Positions 21,308 through 30,350 of a DNA stretch of 64,000 nucleotides are shown here, piece after piece (the first letter of the stretch is position 1; every line of letters starts with the position of its first letter). Under the pieces are notes generated by a model. It saw only the letters and a list, made by a program, of their open reading frames with translations. It had not been told where the DNA came from and did no database searches. The stretch covers positions 124,001 to 188,000 of the forward strand of contig NZ_JAAIYP010000037.1 of the NCBI RefSeq assembly GCF_011022235.1, written 5' to 3'. The stretch is from Magnetospirillum aberrantis SpK (GTDB taxonomy: Bacteria > Pseudomonadota > Alphaproteobacteria > Rhodospirillales > Magnetospirillaceae). Position numbers and translations under genes: made by a program.

Positions 21308-22642
21308 ATGACCGCGCTGAAGGTGCCGCCGGGCTTTGTTTGGGGGGCATCCACCTCCGCCTACCAGATCGAAGGGGCGGCGGCCGAGGACGGGCGCGGG
21401 CCCAGCATCTGGGACATTCATTCCCGTATTCCCGGCCGCACCAACAACGGCGACACCGGCGACGTGGCCTGCGACCACTATCATCGCTGGCCCGAGGATC
21501 TGGCCCTGCTGAAAAGGCTGGGGGTCGACGCCTATCGCTTTTCTGTGGCGTGGCCGCGTGTATTGCCGCGCGGGCGCGGCGCGGCCAACGACAAGGGGCT
21601 GGATTTCTACGACCGGGTGATCGACGCGGTGCTGGATGCCGGCATCCAGCCATGGCTGTGCCTCTATCATTGGGACCTGCCGCAGCGTTTGCACGAGTTG
21701 GGTGGTTGGACCAACCGCGACGTCGCCGGCTGGTTCGCCGACTACGCCACGCTGGTCGCCCGCCGCTTCGGCGATCGGGTGCGCCATTTCGCCACCTTCA
21801 ACGAACCCAACGTCGCCACTTTGTTCGGCTATGCCATGACGTGGTGCGCGCCGGCCATGGCCGACCGCGACGCCTATTTCCGCGCCGCCCACCACCTGAA
21901 CCTCGCGCATGGGGCGGCGGTGGACGTGTTGCGCGACCATGTGAAGGGCGCGCGGATCGGCGCCATCTACAACATGCAGCCGGTGCACCCCGAATCCGAT
22001 ACCGCCGAGAACCGGCACGCGGCCAAGGTGCTGGACGCCCACTGGAATCTGGTCTACGCCGACCCCCAGATTCTGGGAACCTATCCGGCGGTGGTGGCCG
22101 GCGATTTCGAACCCTACGTCCAGGCCGGCGACATGGCCCGCATCTGCCGGCCCGTGGACTGGTTCGGCATGAATCATTACGGCCCCATCTGGACACGGGC
22201 CGATGCCGACAGCCAACTGGGTTTCGCCTGGGGCGACAATCCCAATCCGGTGCCCCATCCCGACATCGGCTGGCCCATCTATCCCGATGCCTTCACCGCC
22301 GAACTCAAGCGCTGTGCCGCCCGTTACCGCCTGCCGGTCTATGTGACCGAGAACGGCATGGGGCGTGGTGCCGACGAGGAAAAGGTGGTGGGCGGCCGGG
22401 TCGAGGACCCTTACCGTATCGCCTATCTCAAGCTTTATACCCAGGCCATGGAGCAGGCCATCGCCGATGGTGTCGACGTGCGCGGATACTTCATCTGGTC
22501 GCTTTTGGACAATTACGAGTGGGGATCGGGCTACGGCAATCGTTTCGGCATCGTGCATGTGGATTTCGCCAGTCAGACGCGCACCCCCAAGGATTCGTTC
22601 TCGTGGTACGCCGACCTGATCCAGCGGACGCGGAAGGGATAA
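21308..22642 (+). CDS. bglA: Glycoside hydrolase family 1 beta-glucosidase
   Basis: A 444-residue retaining beta-glycosidase with the GH1 barrel. It has the N-terminal PPGFVWGASTSAYQIEGAA, the acid/base Glu in ATFNEPNVAT and the nucleophile Glu in YVTENGMG. The C-terminal FIWSLLDNYEWGSGYGNRFG binds the glycone. There is no signal peptide, so it would act on imported cellobiose-like disaccharides or aryl-glucosides in the cytoplasm. A PAS histidine kinase starts four bases downstream, an odd partnership that may be only transcriptional. Confidence 0.95.
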   Translation: MTALKVPPGFVWGASTSAYQIEGAAAEDGRGPSIWDIHSRIPGRTNNGDTGDVACDHYHRWPEDLALLKRLGVDAYRFSVAWPRVLPRGRGAANDKGLDFYDRVIDAVLDAGIQPWLCLYHWDLPQRLHELGGWTNRDVAGWFADYATLVARRFGDRVRHFATFNEPNVATLFGYAMTWCAPAMADRDAYFRAAHHLNLAHGAAVDVLRDHVKGARIGAIYNMQPVHPESDTAENRHAAKVLDAHWNLVYADPQILGTYPAVVAGDFEPYVQAGDMARICRPVDWFGMNHYGPIWTRADADSQLGFAWGDNPNPVPHPDIGWPIYPDAFTAELKRCAARYRLPVYVTENGMGRGADEEKVVGGRVEDPYRIAYLKLYTQAMEQAIADGVDVRGYFIWSLLDNYEWGSGYGNRFGIVHVDFASQTRTPKDSFSWYADLIQRTRKG

Positions 22643-25757: not shown

Positions 25758-26446
25758 GACTGATCCGACTGATCGCCAATCTCGGTTACGGCAGCCAGCG
25801 AGAGGTGAAGGCGATGCTGCGCGCCGGCCGCCTGACTTTGGCCGATGGCACGGAACTGGCCGAGAGCTCGCGGGTCGAGCACGCCGACATCCGTCTGGAT
25901 GGCGAGGTGTTGGACCCGCCCCAGGGCATGGTGCTGATGCTCAACAAGCCGCAGGGCTATACCTGTTCGACCTCGGACCCTGGCCGTATCGTCTACGAGT
26001 TGCTGCCGCCGCGTTTCATGCGCCGCAATCCGGTCGTCGCCCCGGTCGGGCGGCTGGACCGCGACACCACCGGCTTGTTGCTGCTGACCGACGACGGGGA
26101 CTTGCTGCACCGTCTGACCTCGCCCAAGCACCATGTGCCCAAGACCTATGACGTCACCCTGGCCCGGCCGTTGACGGGGGACGAGGGGGAATTGTTCGCC
26201 AGCGGCACGTTGCTTCTGCGCTCGGAAACCACGCCCTTGCTGCCGGCGATGCTGAAGGCGACCGGCGATTGTTCGGCCCGTCTGACCATCACCGAAGGCC
26301 GTTACCATCAGGTCAAGCGCATGTTCGCCGCCACCGGCAACCACGTGGAAAGCCTGCACCGCTCGGCGATTGGCGGTTTGGGCCTGGGCGACCTGCCCGA
26401 GGGACAATGGCGTTTCCTGACGGCGGACGAGGTGGCGGGGCTTTAA
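25754..26446 (+). CDS. rsuA: RsuA-family 16S rRNA pseudouridine synthase
   Basis: A 230-residue pseudouridine synthase. A short S4-like RNA-binding domain (residues 1-55) precedes the catalytic domain. The catalytic Asp lies in PVGRLDRDTTGLLLLT, the KPQGY motif I is near residue 68, and EGRYHQVKRMF is the family's C-terminal motif. RsuA itself modifies U516 of 16S rRNA; RluB/E/F relatives act on 23S. Coupled to the rsmC-like gene by an ATGA overlap. Its stop overlaps the convergent Gate-domain gene by four bases. Confidence 0.9.
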   Translation: MRLIRLIANLGYGSQREVKAMLRAGRLTLADGTELAESSRVEHADIRLDGEVLDPPQGMVLMLNKPQGYTCSTSDPGRIVYELLPPRFMRRNPVVAPVGRLDRDTTGLLLLTDDGDLLHRLTSPKHHVPKTYDVTLARPLTGDEGELFASGTLLLRSETTPLLPAMLKATGDCSARLTITEGRYHQVKRMFAATGNHVESLHRSAIGGLGLGDLPEGQWRFLTADEVAGL

Positions 26447-27381
26447 CCCGCCAGCAGATGTCCGGCGGTGCGCACGGCGATGCCGATCGCGGCACCCAGG
26501 CAGGCGGGTTTCCAGACGGCGGCGACGCGGCGGCCGGCGCTCATCAACACGGCGACGCCGGGCACGTCCAGCGGATGGATCAGAAAGCCGGCGCTGGCGT
26601 TCAAAAGTCCGGCCGGCATGGTTCCCGCCCGCACCTGTTCGTCGACCACGCCCAGCATGGCGGTGCCGCCGGCCAGATATTTGGTGAAGGTGGGAAGGAT
26701 CACCGCCGGGTCGATGCCGACCAGGGTCAGGGCAGGGGCCAGCAGCGTGGTCAAGGAATCGATGGCGCCCAGTTTCCTGAGCGCGGTCACCGCGACCAGC
26801 GACAGCACCAGCATGGGAATGGCGCCGATGGCGATCTTGAACGCCTCGGCCCCGGCACGGTTGATGACGTCCAGCACGCCCTTGGCGTCCTCGGCCACCG
26901 GGTGGCGCAAGGTTTCGTCCATGACATGCTCGTCCTCGGACAGGTGCCGGCCGAAAACGTAGGTGGTGGCCGCCGCCGCCGCCAGGCCGCCCACCAGCGA
27001 CCATGCCAGGGTCGGCCACACCGAAAGGCCCAATGCCGCCAACGGGAAGGTGGCGTTGGCCTGGGCCATGGCCAGCACCATGGCGAAGGCGGCGGCCAGA
27101 TGGCGATCAGAGGCGCCGCGCCCTTCCATCATGGACAAGGTCGCGAGCGGCGCGGCGAAGCTGACGAAGTTGATCTGAAGGGCGGCGAACACGCCCAGCC
27201 CGGTCAGGCCGAACGGCCTGAGCGACGGCGCCAGGCGCGCCACCAGCCAATCCATGACGCCGCGCGCTTCCAGCAGCCGCATGATGGACAGCATCACCAC
27301 CATGATCGGCAACAGCACGAACAGCGACAGTTCCACCGCCGCGCGTCCCGCCGGCAGGATGACCGAAATCAGCGCTTCCAT
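26443..27381 (-). CDS. Gate-domain (nucleoside-recognition) membrane protein
   Basis: A 312-residue polytopic membrane protein with two Gate-like repeats. The first is around MEALISVILPAGRAAVELSL; the second is around AGAEAFKIAIGAIPMLVLSL. GTAMLGVVDEQV and SAGFLIHPLDVPG follow. Proteins with this domain include SpoIIIM-type and YjiH/YjiG-type proteins and parts of nucleoside transporters. Many are uncharacterised. It directly follows the SbmA/YddA-like gene with a one-base overlap (27381), so the two are probably one functional unit. Confidence 0.8.
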   Translation of the reverse strand: MEALISVILPAGRAAVELSLFVLLPIMVVMLSIMRLLEARGVMDWLVARLAPSLRPFGLTGLGVFAALQINFVSFAAPLATLSMMEGRGASDRHLAAAFAMVLAMAQANATFPLAALGLSVWPTLAWSLVGGLAAAAATTYVFGRHLSEDEHVMDETLRHPVAEDAKGVLDVINRAGAEAFKIAIGAIPMLVLSLVAVTALRKLGAIDSLTTLLAPALTLVGIDPAVILPTFTKYLAGGTAMLGVVDEQVRAGTMPAGLLNASAGFLIHPLDVPGVAVLMSAGRRVAAVWKPACLGAAIGIAVRTAGHLLAG

Positions 27382-29294
27382 CAGTTCTCGCGGCGTTCGC
27401 CCTGGCGGCGCAGGGGGTGGACCAGCCAGTTGCGCAGATCGAGCGGGCTCATCTTGCGGCGACGGTCGGGGGGAGGGGCGCCGGCCAGCGTCGATGCCTT
27501 GACCTGAACCTGTCCGTCCTTGCTGGGTTCAAGCGTCAGCTTGCGTTCGTGATAGGCCTCGAGCGCTGAGTGATAGCCGACCGTGATGACCGTGGCGGCT
27601 GGGAATTCCTCGCGCACCAACTGCATCATCTCGTGCTCGCCGTCGGGGTGTAGTCCGTCCGTGGCTTCCTGGATGAAGATCCAGTTGGGACGGTGCAGCA
27701 ATAGCCGGGCGAAGCCCAGGCGCTGTTGTTCGCCCAAGGTCAACACGTTTTCCCAGGTATTGGTTTCCTCAAGCCGTTCGGACATGTGTCCCAACCCGAC
27801 CCGCGACAGGGTCGCCATCAGGAAATCGTTGTCGAAACTGTCGGGTCCGGCCGGATAGGCCAGCACGCTGCGCAGCCGGGCAATGGGCAGATAGGGACGC
27901 TGCGGCATGAAGAAGATGCCGGTGTCGTTGGGTTTGAACACCTGGCCCGATCCCCACGGCCACAGCCCCGCCACCACCTTGAACAGCTTGATGGCGGCAC
28001 CGGGGTCGCCCGAGATCAGAACCCGCTCGCCGGCCTCGATGGTCTCCGTGAAGTTGTTGACGACCGGGGTTCCATCGACGCGGGCGACGCAAAGGTCGTC
28101 GAACACCAGGGCCGGCCGGTCGCCGGTCTCCACCTGGATGGTGTTGGCGCTGTCGGTTCGCGCCTGCTCCTGTTTCAGGGCCTGAAGGGCGTTGTGCAAC
28201 GACAGCACGCGCTCGACGCTGGCTTTCCATTCCGCCGCCTTGGACAGGTTGTCCACCGGCCACGACAGGGCGCTGGTCATCTGTTGGAAAGCTTGGGCGA
28301 TCTGCATCAGTTCACCCAGGGAGATGACGCCGGCGATGTAGCGCGGAGCGGCGATCAGGAAGGGAAAGCCGCTGGCCAGCACGCTGTAGCCCGACGAGAA
28401 CACGAATACCTTGGCCAAAGCCGTGGTCTGAAGGTTGAAGCCCTTGCGCACCGCCACGAACAGGTCGGACAGTCGGCGACGTTCGTCGGGTTCGCCGTGC
28501 AGCAGGGCGATGGCTTCGGAATTTTCACGCACGCGGACCAGGCCAAAGCGGAAATTGGCCTCGACCGTCTGGCGCATGTTGACCGTCCGCACCAGCGGCC
28601 GGCCGATCAGCACGGCCGCCGTGGTGCCGGCGGTGGCGTACAATATGGACACGAACACCATGTGTCCGGGCACGGCGATGGCGGTGTCGAACAGCGTGAC
28701 CGTGACCACCCCCGACAACGACCACAAAATCTGGGTGAAGCTGACCAGAAGCAACAGGCAATAGAACAGCGAATGCGCAAGGTCGATGGCGCTTTCGCAG
28801 GTGTTGCGGATGTCCTCGGAAATGCGGCCGTCGGGATTGTCGTGGTCGCCTGGCATGTGGTTGACCAGATAGTGCCGCCCTTCGGCCATCCAATTGTCCA
28901 GCACTTGCCGGCTCAGCCAGCGCCGCCAGCCGATCTGGAGGTTGCGCTTGACGATCAGGTGCGTCGAGGTGATGACCATGGCGATGCCCAGGATGCCCAG
29001 CAACGCCACCACCTGGACCAGGAAGCGTTCCATGGAACGTTGTTCCAAGGCGTTGAACAGCTTGGCGCTCCACAGGTTGACCATGATCGGCACGATCACC
29101 TGGGCGATGGTCAGCAGGATGAACAGCGCGGTCATGCCGCGCACCGCCCATTTCTCGTCGGACGACCAATAAGGGCCGGCAAGGTCAAGGAACTGACGGA
29201 AAAAACCCTTGGCGCGTGCGGGTGGGGGTTCTCCGGCCGATGATCGCGCCGCTCCCTCCGCCGTCATTCCATCTCCCCCAAAAGGCCTAGTCAT
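27381..29294 (-). CDS. SbmA/YddA-type ABC protein with degenerate ATPase domain
   Basis: A 637-residue fused permease-ATPase of the YddA/BacA-related group. The permease half (about residues 35-360, six helices, with VNLWSAKLFNALEQR and NPDGRISEDIR typical of the family) is well kept. The ATPase half keeps the Q-loop (MPQRPYLPIARLRSVL) and signature (LTLGEQQRLGFARLLL), but three catalytic elements have changed. Walker A reads GDPGAAIKLF, lacking the GK[ST] of a P-loop. Walker B reads WIFIQEAT, with Gln replacing Asp. The H-loop reads VGYHS, with Tyr at the usual His. SbmA/BacA relatives work without ATP, by proton gradient. Transport of peptides or cofactors is inferred. Confidence 0.9.
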   Translation of the reverse strand: MTRPFGGDGMTAEGAARSSAGEPPPARAKGFFRQFLDLAGPYWSSDEKWAVRGMTALFILLTIAQVIVPIMVNLWSAKLFNALEQRSMERFLVQVVALLGILGIAMVITSTHLIVKRNLQIGWRRWLSRQVLDNWMAEGRHYLVNHMPGDHDNPDGRISEDIRNTCESAIDLAHSLFYCLLLLVSFTQILWSLSGVVTVTLFDTAIAVPGHMVFVSILYATAGTTAAVLIGRPLVRTVNMRQTVEANFRFGLVRVRENSEAIALLHGEPDERRRLSDLFVAVRKGFNLQTTALAKVFVFSSGYSVLASGFPFLIAAPRYIAGVISLGELMQIAQAFQQMTSALSWPVDNLSKAAEWKASVERVLSLHNALQALKQEQARTDSANTIQVETGDRPALVFDDLCVARVDGTPVVNNFTETIEAGERVLISGDPGAAIKLFKVVAGLWPWGSGQVFKPNDTGIFFMPQRPYLPIARLRSVLAYPAGPDSFDNDFLMATLSRVGLGHMSERLEETNTWENVLTLGEQQRLGFARLLLHRPNWIFIQEATDGLHPDGEHEMMQLVREEFPAATVITVGYHSALEAYHERKLTLEPSKDGQVQVKASTLAGAPPPDRRRKMSPLDLRNWLVHPLRRQGERREN

Positions 29295-29417
29295 CCGTAT
29301 TCACCACAATAAACCATGGCCCGCGTGGAAACACCAGCGGGGGAACGGTGGGACGGGCTGCGCTTGACCAAGGTGGTCGGACCAATCCATGCTCGACGTC
29401 CTCTGGAAAGGTGCCCC

Positions 29418-30350
29418 ATGCAAGTTGTTTTCGACGTCGTCCTGCCTGTTTTCGCCATCGTCGCCGCCGGTTACGGCGGTGGCCGGTCGGTTCTGGGGCA
29501 AACGGCGTCCACGGCGTTGTCGGCTTTCGTCTATTGGTTCGCCCTGCCGGCGGTTCTGTTTCTCAGCATGGCCCGCCAGCCCTTGGAACAGATCTTCAAC
29601 GGTTCGTTCCTCGGCGCTTTCCTGGGCTCCATGCTGGTGGTGTATTTCGGCGGCGGCTTGTTGGGGCGGCTGGTCGGTCGCCGCACCTGGGCCGAGCATT
29701 CGCTGCAAGGGCTGAACGCGGCGTTCTCCAACACCGGCTACATGGGCATTCCGTTGTTCGTCGCCGCCTACGGCGCCGACCACCTGTTGCCGGCGCTGAT
29801 CGCCACGGTGGTCATGAGCGTGGTCATGGTGGGGTTGGCGGTGATCTGGATCGAACTGGCGCAATCGGCCGGCAACGGCATCGTCCACGCGCTGCGCGAT
29901 GTCGGCCGCGCCCTGGTGCGCAATCCGCTGATCGTGTCCTCGGTGGCGGGGTTGGCCTGGAACCTGGGCGGATGGCCGCTGCCGACGCCGGCCGTCAACT
30001 TCTGTCAGTTGGTGGGGGCGGCGGCGGGACCGTGCGCGTTGTTCGCCATCGGCGTCTTCCTGGCGGGACGCCCTTTGAGCTTGGCATGGCGCAAGGTGGG
30101 GTGGATGGTGCCGCTGAAGCTGGTGGTCCAGCCACTGCTGGCCTGGGTGCTGATCAAGACGGCGTTTCCGCTCGATCCCTTTTGGACCGGGGCGACGTTG
30201 TTGCTGGCGGCGTTGCCGACCGGGGCGCTGACCTTCGTGGTTGCCAGCCAGTATCAGACCTATGTCGAGGAGACCAGTCAGGTGATCTTGCTGTCGACGA
30301 TCGCCTCGGTGCCGGTTCTGTCGCTGATCCTGGTGCTTTACGTCGGCTGA
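29418..30350 (+). CDS. AEC-family (auxin efflux carrier) permease
   Basis: A 310-residue inner-membrane protein with about ten helices arranged as two five-helix repeats. NTGYMGIPLFVAAYG in the first half and LPTGALTFVVASQY in the second correspond to the crossover elements of the family. Bacterial AEC members such as MdcF move malonate or other small acids; the substrate here is unknown. I chose ATG 29418, preceded by GGAAAGG. The longer reading from 29316 has no ribosome site. Confidence 0.9.
   Translation: MQVVFDVVLPVFAIVAAGYGGGRSVLGQTASTALSAFVYWFALPAVLFLSMARQPLEQIFNGSFLGAFLGSMLVVYFGGGLLGRLVGRRTWAEHSLQGLNAAFSNTGYMGIPLFVAAYGADHLLPALIATVVMSVVMVGLAVIWIELAQSAGNGIVHALRDVGRALVRNPLIVSSVAGLAWNLGGWPLPTPAVNFCQLVGAAAGPCALFAIGVFLAGRPLSLAWRKVGWMVPLKLVVQPLLAWVLIKTAFPLDPFWTGATLLLAALPTGALTFVVASQYQTYVEETSQVILLSTIASVPVLSLILVLYVG

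Follow-up and report, generated by a model that had tools for sequence, protein, structure and literature searches.

Transporters of the YddA/BclA type, which belong to the type IV ATP-binding cassette (ABC) transporters, are driven by ATP, and for BclA it has been reported that transport requires ATP hydrolysis (PMC12003926, where SbmA/BacA, BclA and related groups are also classified). SbmA, in turn, has been argued to descend from a YddA-like ancestor that shed its nucleotide-binding domain (NBD) (PMC13316013, 2026). Here we analysed a half-transporter of 637 amino acids and of the YddA/BclA/ABCD type from Magnetospirillum aberrantis SpK, encoded at 27381..29294 on the minus strand of a stretch of 64,000 nucleotides (positions 124,001 to 188,000 of contig NZ_JAAIYP010000037.1), which we refer to as the window. 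A first-pass annotation of the sequence had described its ATPase domain as apparently dead. The protein belongs to a clade in which the Walker A lysine is deleted and the domain that carried it is retained.

Homologues were taken from the window's relatives, GTDB contigs, a family sample and a class sample, and the main alignment comprised 123 non-redundant sequences as well as YddA and SbmA of Escherichia coli. It holds 56 clade sequences including the query, termed dead in the following, which are at least 43% identical to the query, and 68 live sequences with an NBD, YddA included, with at most 41.5% identity. All 56 dead sequences showed a one-column gap precisely at the position of the Walker A lysine in all 68 live sequences. 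When sequences beyond the alignment were added (nine inside and 14 outside the clade), the lysine was absent from 65/65 clade sequences typed, the query included, and present in 82/82 typed homologues outside the clade; hence the motif loss exceeds chance. Before the 123 rows were aligned, the fragments L066, L088 and L113 (L and G numbers are our own handles for loci and genomes) and contained duplicates were removed, and L088 was typed afterwards. The gene of G036 is split across two contigs and was counted once; in L035 (G013) the match is split over two frames and offers no residues at the signature, Walker B and H-loop. For the class search only the three best candidates per genome were scored, and typing was incomplete for rows below 39% identity.

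The lysine deletion is the event common to the clade, and the other catalytic residues were eroded unevenly. The Walker B aspartate occurs in 68/68 live but 2/56 dead sequences, the signature serine in 68/68 and 8/56, the H-loop histidine in 67/68 and 15/56, the catalytic glutamate in 67/68 and 31/56, and the Q-loop glutamine in 68/68 and 33/56, respectively. Even the changes in Walker B and the H-loop vary within the clade, as L040 reads FLDEAT and L042 reads IGH. The first-pass annotation had named three substitutions, in Walker A, Walker B and the H-loop, and had asked for their conservation among orthologues. Loss of the ATPase motifs is indeed conserved, but none of the three is fixed in the form named, and the deletion of the lysine is shared instead. 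With the lysine in 0/65 and the Walker B aspartate in 2/56 sequences, the clade lacks the functional motifs for ATP binding and hydrolysis of YddA/BclA-type transporters, which bears out the dead ATPase domain.

Carriers of the dead gene include Magnetospirillum and Roseomonas records, and in a sample of 299 phylum genomes, with the four best candidates per genome scored, rows from other classes had at most 38% identity. Two records titled Stygiobacter and Rhizobium (L043 and L046) carry typical members of this alphaproteobacterial clade, and the labels of these metagenome-assembled genomes may be wrong. Two dead-ATPase copies lie near each other in L047 (two frames), and second dead copies were found in G019, G026 and G062 (L072, L073, L131).

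In the window, the reading frame is uninterrupted over 637 codons from the ATG at 29294 to the stop codon ending at 27381, as the first-pass annotation had noted without giving the strand, and the motifs quoted there were exact; the sequence reads GDPGAA-IKLFKV for Walker A, WIFIQEAT for Walker B, VGYHS for the H-loop, LTLGEQQR for the signature and MPQRPY for the Q-loop. The transmembrane domain (TMD; residues about 29-380, 28155..29210) was recognized by Pfam as ABC_membrane_2 (residues 49-317, 142.4 bits, cut-off 24.4) and SbmA_BacA (residues 48-361, 80.1 bits), in agreement with the healthy permease half described before. The NBD fold (residues about 394-590, 27525..28115), on the other hand, reached 21.5 bits for ABC_tran, under the cut-off of 25. 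Within it, the alignment placed the remnant Walker A GDPGAA-IKLFK (27978..28010), in which the P-loop lysine is deleted, the third glycine is replaced by alanine and the serine/threonine by isoleucine; the Q-loop FFMPQRPYLP (27885..27914) with its glutamine retained; the signature VLTLGEQQRL (27717..27746) with threonine for serine; Walker B, beginning WIFIQEAT (27648..27683), with glutamine for aspartate and the catalytic glutamate retained; and the H-loop ITVGYHSAL (27561..27587) with tyrosine for histidine. All these features are on the minus strand.

An AlphaFold2 (AF2) model of the dead protein was computed as a monomer from 28 rows (mean predicted local distance difference test score, pLDDT, 78.6; predicted TM-score, pTM, 0.67), and a live control was folded as a monomer with the same rows. 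In the model of the dead protein a C-terminal NBD fold is fused to the TMD, and residues 28-605 align with Rv1819c (6tqe), the best PDB relative by sequence (E 1e-62; Foldseek TM-score 0.70 at 26% identity; Z 25.6 over 563 residues). Human ABCD1 (7vx8) scored Z 26.2 and is tied with 6tqe. The live control retained a six-residue loop (419-424) and began the following helix at the Walker A lysine, Lys425; in the dead protein, strand 424-429 is predicted to be followed by a helix beginning at Pro431. The motif LSWP in TM6 (residues 343-346, 28257..28268, minus strand), whose W345 corresponds in the alignment to Y368, the gate residue of SbmA, was considered as a mark of the clade on account of a kink in the helix. 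This was rejected because the live control shows an equal break, and only Pro346 marks the clade.

Phylogenetic trees were built from the TMD sequence only, and thus without the motif columns. In a quick tree of 96 rows, from which rows more than 80% identical had been thinned beforehand, all dead rows fell on one side of a branch with a Shimodaira-Hasegawa-like approximate likelihood ratio test (SH-aLRT) support of 95; in a careful tree of 49 hand-picked rows the dead group received 97/94 (bootstrap/SH-aLRT). Nearest to it are the live sequences L100 and L101, and its closest live sister is held by the genomes G356 and G433. Both trees nest the dead clade among live YddA/BclA-like proteins and place SbmA on its own branch, which does not agree with the suggestion of the first-pass annotation that the protein is an intermediate on the road to SbmA. 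In an approximately unbiased (AU) test, a joint group of dead sequences and SbmA was rejected in the 49-row tree (p 0.009) but not in the 96-row tree (p 0.30); the TMD trees therefore favour, but do not prove, an origin independent of SbmA.

Judged by codon comparison, the dead NBD is under purifying selection against its closest orthologues. The ratio of non-synonymous to synonymous substitution rates (omega, dN/dS) against the three closest orthologues was 0.17, 0.16 and 0.15 for the NBD and 0.22, 0.21 and 0.18 for the TMD. The earlier proposal that the domain is retained for something besides hydrolysis is supported. A relaxed constraint on the NBD was also considered and rejected owing to mixed signals. 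Mean pairwise identities are lower for the NBD in the dead set (TMD 0.586, NBD 0.520; live set 0.424 and 0.462), yet the medians of omega are equal for the two halves and the NBD/TMD ratio of dN was 1.03 in 435 dead pairs, compared with 2.00 in 35 live pairs, which are mainly cyanobacterial and far less divergent.

A GH1 (glycoside hydrolase family 1) beta-glucosidase is encoded at 21308..22642 on the plus strand, 4.7 kb from the ABC gene and convergent with it (Glyco_hydro_1 492 bits; TIGR03356 566.2 bits, cut-off 478.5). The enzyme contains TFNEP and VTENG, which we take to be the GH1 motifs holding the two catalytic glutamates, and a signal peptide is not apparent by eye. When 35 neighbouring GH1 rows were aligned with that of the window, every one of them had both catalytic glutamates (L046 and L217 represent one gene). 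NEF replaces NEP after the acid/base glutamate in 22 of these 35 rows (e.g. L151, L159, L219); the window copy has NEP. Neighbours were compared by tblastn with the window proteins, as clustering of open reading frames had been abandoned owing to shadow frames in GC-rich DNA.

A dead copy was present in 48 of the 55 genomes of the family sample, and the 51 dead copies were all typed by motif. Of these 51 copies, 30 have a GH1 gene at a distance of at most 10 kb, and for 25 of them the distance is at most 1 kb; none of 15 live copies has one in this range. GH1 is present in 48/48 carriers but 1/7 non-carriers. Among the dead loci L150-L169, picked for breadth though after GH1 had first been noticed, GH1 occurs within 5 kb in 16/20, whereas it was found at none of 12 live loci (L200-L210, L218). 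Linkage figures were taken from the full family table and from L150-L169, because later loci (L211-L214, L217, L219) were fetched partly for a GH1 already seen or likely nearby; a p-value based on 22/28 loci mixes the two kinds and is disregarded. In the class sample a GH1 of at least 60% identity was present in 10/10 carriers found and in 3/375 other genomes. The link recurs in the families f1, f2, f4, f65, f76, f118, f138 and f170; in some genera the two genes converge, and in others GH1 lies upstream in the same orientation. Some genomes have the dead ABC gene flanked by two or three GH1 genes that differ in subtype (L155, L169, L212, L213, L214). In L155, L157, L169, L211 and L214 the gene immediately upstream, on the strand of the ABC gene, is of a subtype that shares 44-46% identity with the GH1 of the window.

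Taken together, we propose that the protein is an ATP-independent importer that feeds the cytoplasmic GH1 enzyme and uses its former ATPase domain as a scaffold, with a beta-glucoside as the probable cargo, and we give this proposal an even chance of being correct. Most likely the protein would form a homodimer, with the former ATPase domain serving as a scaffold for structure or regulation, because the NBD evolves under purifying selection and no live paralogue was found in most family carriers. Energy source and cargo are what we infer. Transport would be independent of ATP; the linkage and co-occurrence of GH1 point to a beta-glucoside, or some other beta-glycosylated small molecule, as the probable cargo, which would be brought into the cytoplasm and cleaved there by the GH1 beta-glucosidase. 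Hydrolysis of the cargo would sustain a steep inward gradient, whether or not an ion gradient assists. On a broader view, the clade might represent a second natural transition from ATP-driven to ATP-independent transport, separate from that of SbmA/BacA; here the protein would still have its dead ATPase domain, preserved by selection as a scaffold. An ion gradient acting via a new relay based on His/Arg, or cargo hydrolysis by the linked GH1, would then power import. This we put forward tentatively, at slightly under an even chance.

Several observations weigh against this proposal. In the family sample 21/51 dead copies are without GH1 within 10 kb, many of them in draft genomes with GH1 on another contig; in the genus of the window GH1 is not within 10 kb in 7/13 genomes, and there was none within 5 kb in L049-L051 and several Magnetospirillum loci. 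G356 and G433, with the closest live sister, are two of the three other genomes of the class sample with a GH1 of at least 60% identity and hold an unlinked copy of 62% identity; the association may therefore predate the loss of the ATPase or be independent of it. In addition, common ancestry inflates any p-value of co-occurrence. Wider pairs had a higher omega, with a median of 0.344 for each half over the 435 dead pairs, and synonymous rates (dS) are unreliable in GC-rich codons; pairs with dS outside 0.1-1.6 were excluded. Finally, no new SbmA-like acidic ladder was found in the clade alignment.

The main rivals are a proton symporter resembling SbmA and a receptor that does not transport. 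The first, suggested by the first-pass annotation, is a secondary transporter of the SbmA kind driven by protons through a glutamate ladder or a new ionizable relay. The protein shares the superfamily with SbmA (SbmA_BacA 80.1 bits), and SbmA 9g3g aligns with the AF2 model over 306 residues of the TMD at 3.0 Å (Z 24.0). The SbmA ladder is described as E193, E203, E269, E276, E287 and E378, and that of YddA as incomplete, with only E203 and E287 listed as missing (PMC13316013). The corresponding residues of the query are E, I, V, E, R and E (one sequence alignment, in which E269 in particular may be offset). Thus E160, E245 and, in most of the clade, E355 match E193, E276 and E378, but in most live relatives these three positions likewise hold an acidic residue (Glu or Asp), and a proton path of the SbmA type could not be substantiated from the sequence. 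At the positions of E203, E269 and E287, where the query has I, V and R, the clade carries other hydrophobic or small residues and Arg, like most live relatives, and the same report states that loss of any conserved ladder glutamate inactivates or severely impairs SbmA (PMC13316013). Another relay could be formed by the clade-typical H112 and R117 (56/56), H151 (54/56) and H174 (50/56). In view of this evidence we consider a proton-driven SbmA-like transporter unlikely.

A protein that no longer transports and acts in the GH1 pathway as receptor, scaffold or sensor, or one that works as a channel or lipid scramblase, would account for the loss of the energy source, and residues nearly confined to the clade could be its binding site: H112, R117, S175, Y178, Q289 and P346 are found in 56/56 dead sequences but in at most 10% of the live ones. 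Against this, core TMD residues common to live transporters are invariant (R124, W126, N153, P154, R157, D161, E245, R249, P317, G327, R362), and the TMD is the more conserved half in the clade (mean identity 0.586 compared with 0.520). We regard a loss of transport as improbable, much as we do the proton symporter.

ABC heterodimers frequently have a degenerate site (PMC7756269). In such a pair, of which TAP and TM287/288 are examples, the dead protein might be the degenerate half and a live ABC half-transporter the other. A live paralogue (E<=1e-60) is present in 9/48 family carriers. In the other 39, including the one-contig genomes G007, G029 and G067, no live member of the same family was found at this threshold; other ABC subfamilies were not searched as partners. 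In the genome of the window there is no live family copy, as the next match after the gene itself reached 30.7 bits, and no SbmA match at 1e-50. Such a heterodimer is therefore very unlikely in our view, and the ATP-independent homodimer is preferred. A pseudogene, sequencing error or strain-specific decay, to which the many motif changes within one protein and the match of the relative G013, split over two overlapping frames, might point and which orthologues with intact Walker motifs would indicate according to the first-pass annotation, is refuted by the orthologues, since the identical deletion occurs in 65/65 clade sequences, nearly all with an open frame, and omega of the NBD is 0.15-0.17 against the closest of them, and its probability is negligible.

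A membrane protein with a Gate domain (PF07670, 40.7 bits) is encoded at 26443-27381 on the minus strand and overlaps the stop codon of the ABC gene by one base. This closeness had been noted before and is real, but the proposed partnership found no backing, as there was a match at none of 46 loci, the 83%-identical relative L039 included (some loci represent the same genome fetched twice, flanks begin at about 1.5 kb, and one locus, L052, belongs to a live homologue). One Magnetospirillum subgroup has an open frame of about 427 amino acids just behind the dead ABC gene, in the same orientation and nearly overlapping it (L042:6817-8100, L044:6841-8124, L150:9745-11022). It may be a shadow frame, and for the L042 copy there was no Pfam or NCBIfam match. 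On the other side of the ABC gene, an auxin-efflux-carrier-type transporter gene (Mem_trans, 29316-30350) is divergent and starts 21 bases upstream, and L039 has a homologue at the equivalent place.

The clade bears on the question of how ABC transporters lose ATP coupling and become secondary transporters. It is a natural, conserved case within the SbmA superfamily in which the ATPase function was lost and the domain retained; the close live sister group (G356, G433) allows comparison, and the enzyme in the neighbourhood hints at the cargo. If our proposal is true, it would provide a testable second case of an ATP pump becoming another kind of transporter. Among open-licence PMC papers we found none on this dead-ATPase clade, and the words Magnetospirillum and degenerate do not occur in the main text of PMC12003926.

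Compared with known systems, the clade is closest to the ATP-driven YddA/BclA transporters, with which it shares TMD family and domain order and among whose live members it is nested; these keep the Walker A lysine wherever typed (82/82), whereas the clade has it deleted. Rv1819c, the cobalamin transporter of Mycobacterium tuberculosis (6tqe) and the best PDB match both by sequence and by Foldseek, reads GRSGAGKTTLLRSL in the Walker A region of the alignment and thus has the lysine, unlike the window protein. The exporters with one degenerate site, TAP, TM287/288 and ABCG5/G8, have likewise lost catalytic residues at a nucleotide site, and they retain one consensus site in the dimer. This consensus site is described as kept (PMC7756269), whereas in 39/48 carriers of the dead clade no live family partner was found. 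ABCD is listed as the only human ABC subfamily without a degenerate-site member (PMC7756269). The proton-driven peptide importers SbmA/BacA (SLiPT) belong to the same TMD superfamily, and the ATP-independence that distinguishes them is proposed for the window protein too; SbmA, however, is described as having no NBD and a full glutamate ladder (PMC13316013), while the window protein has an NBD remnant, three of six rungs and a separate branch. LmrA from which the Walker A lysine was deleted (delta-K388) is reported to show 4% of the wild-type ATPase activity, and its domain without the NBD (LmrA-MD) to act as an ethidium-proton symporter (PMC6155054). That deletion resembles the one in the clade but was engineered in another ABC subfamily, whereas ours is natural and common to all members. 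LmrA is a precedent both for the removal of most ATPase activity by loss of the lysine and for an ABC membrane domain powered by ion gradients.

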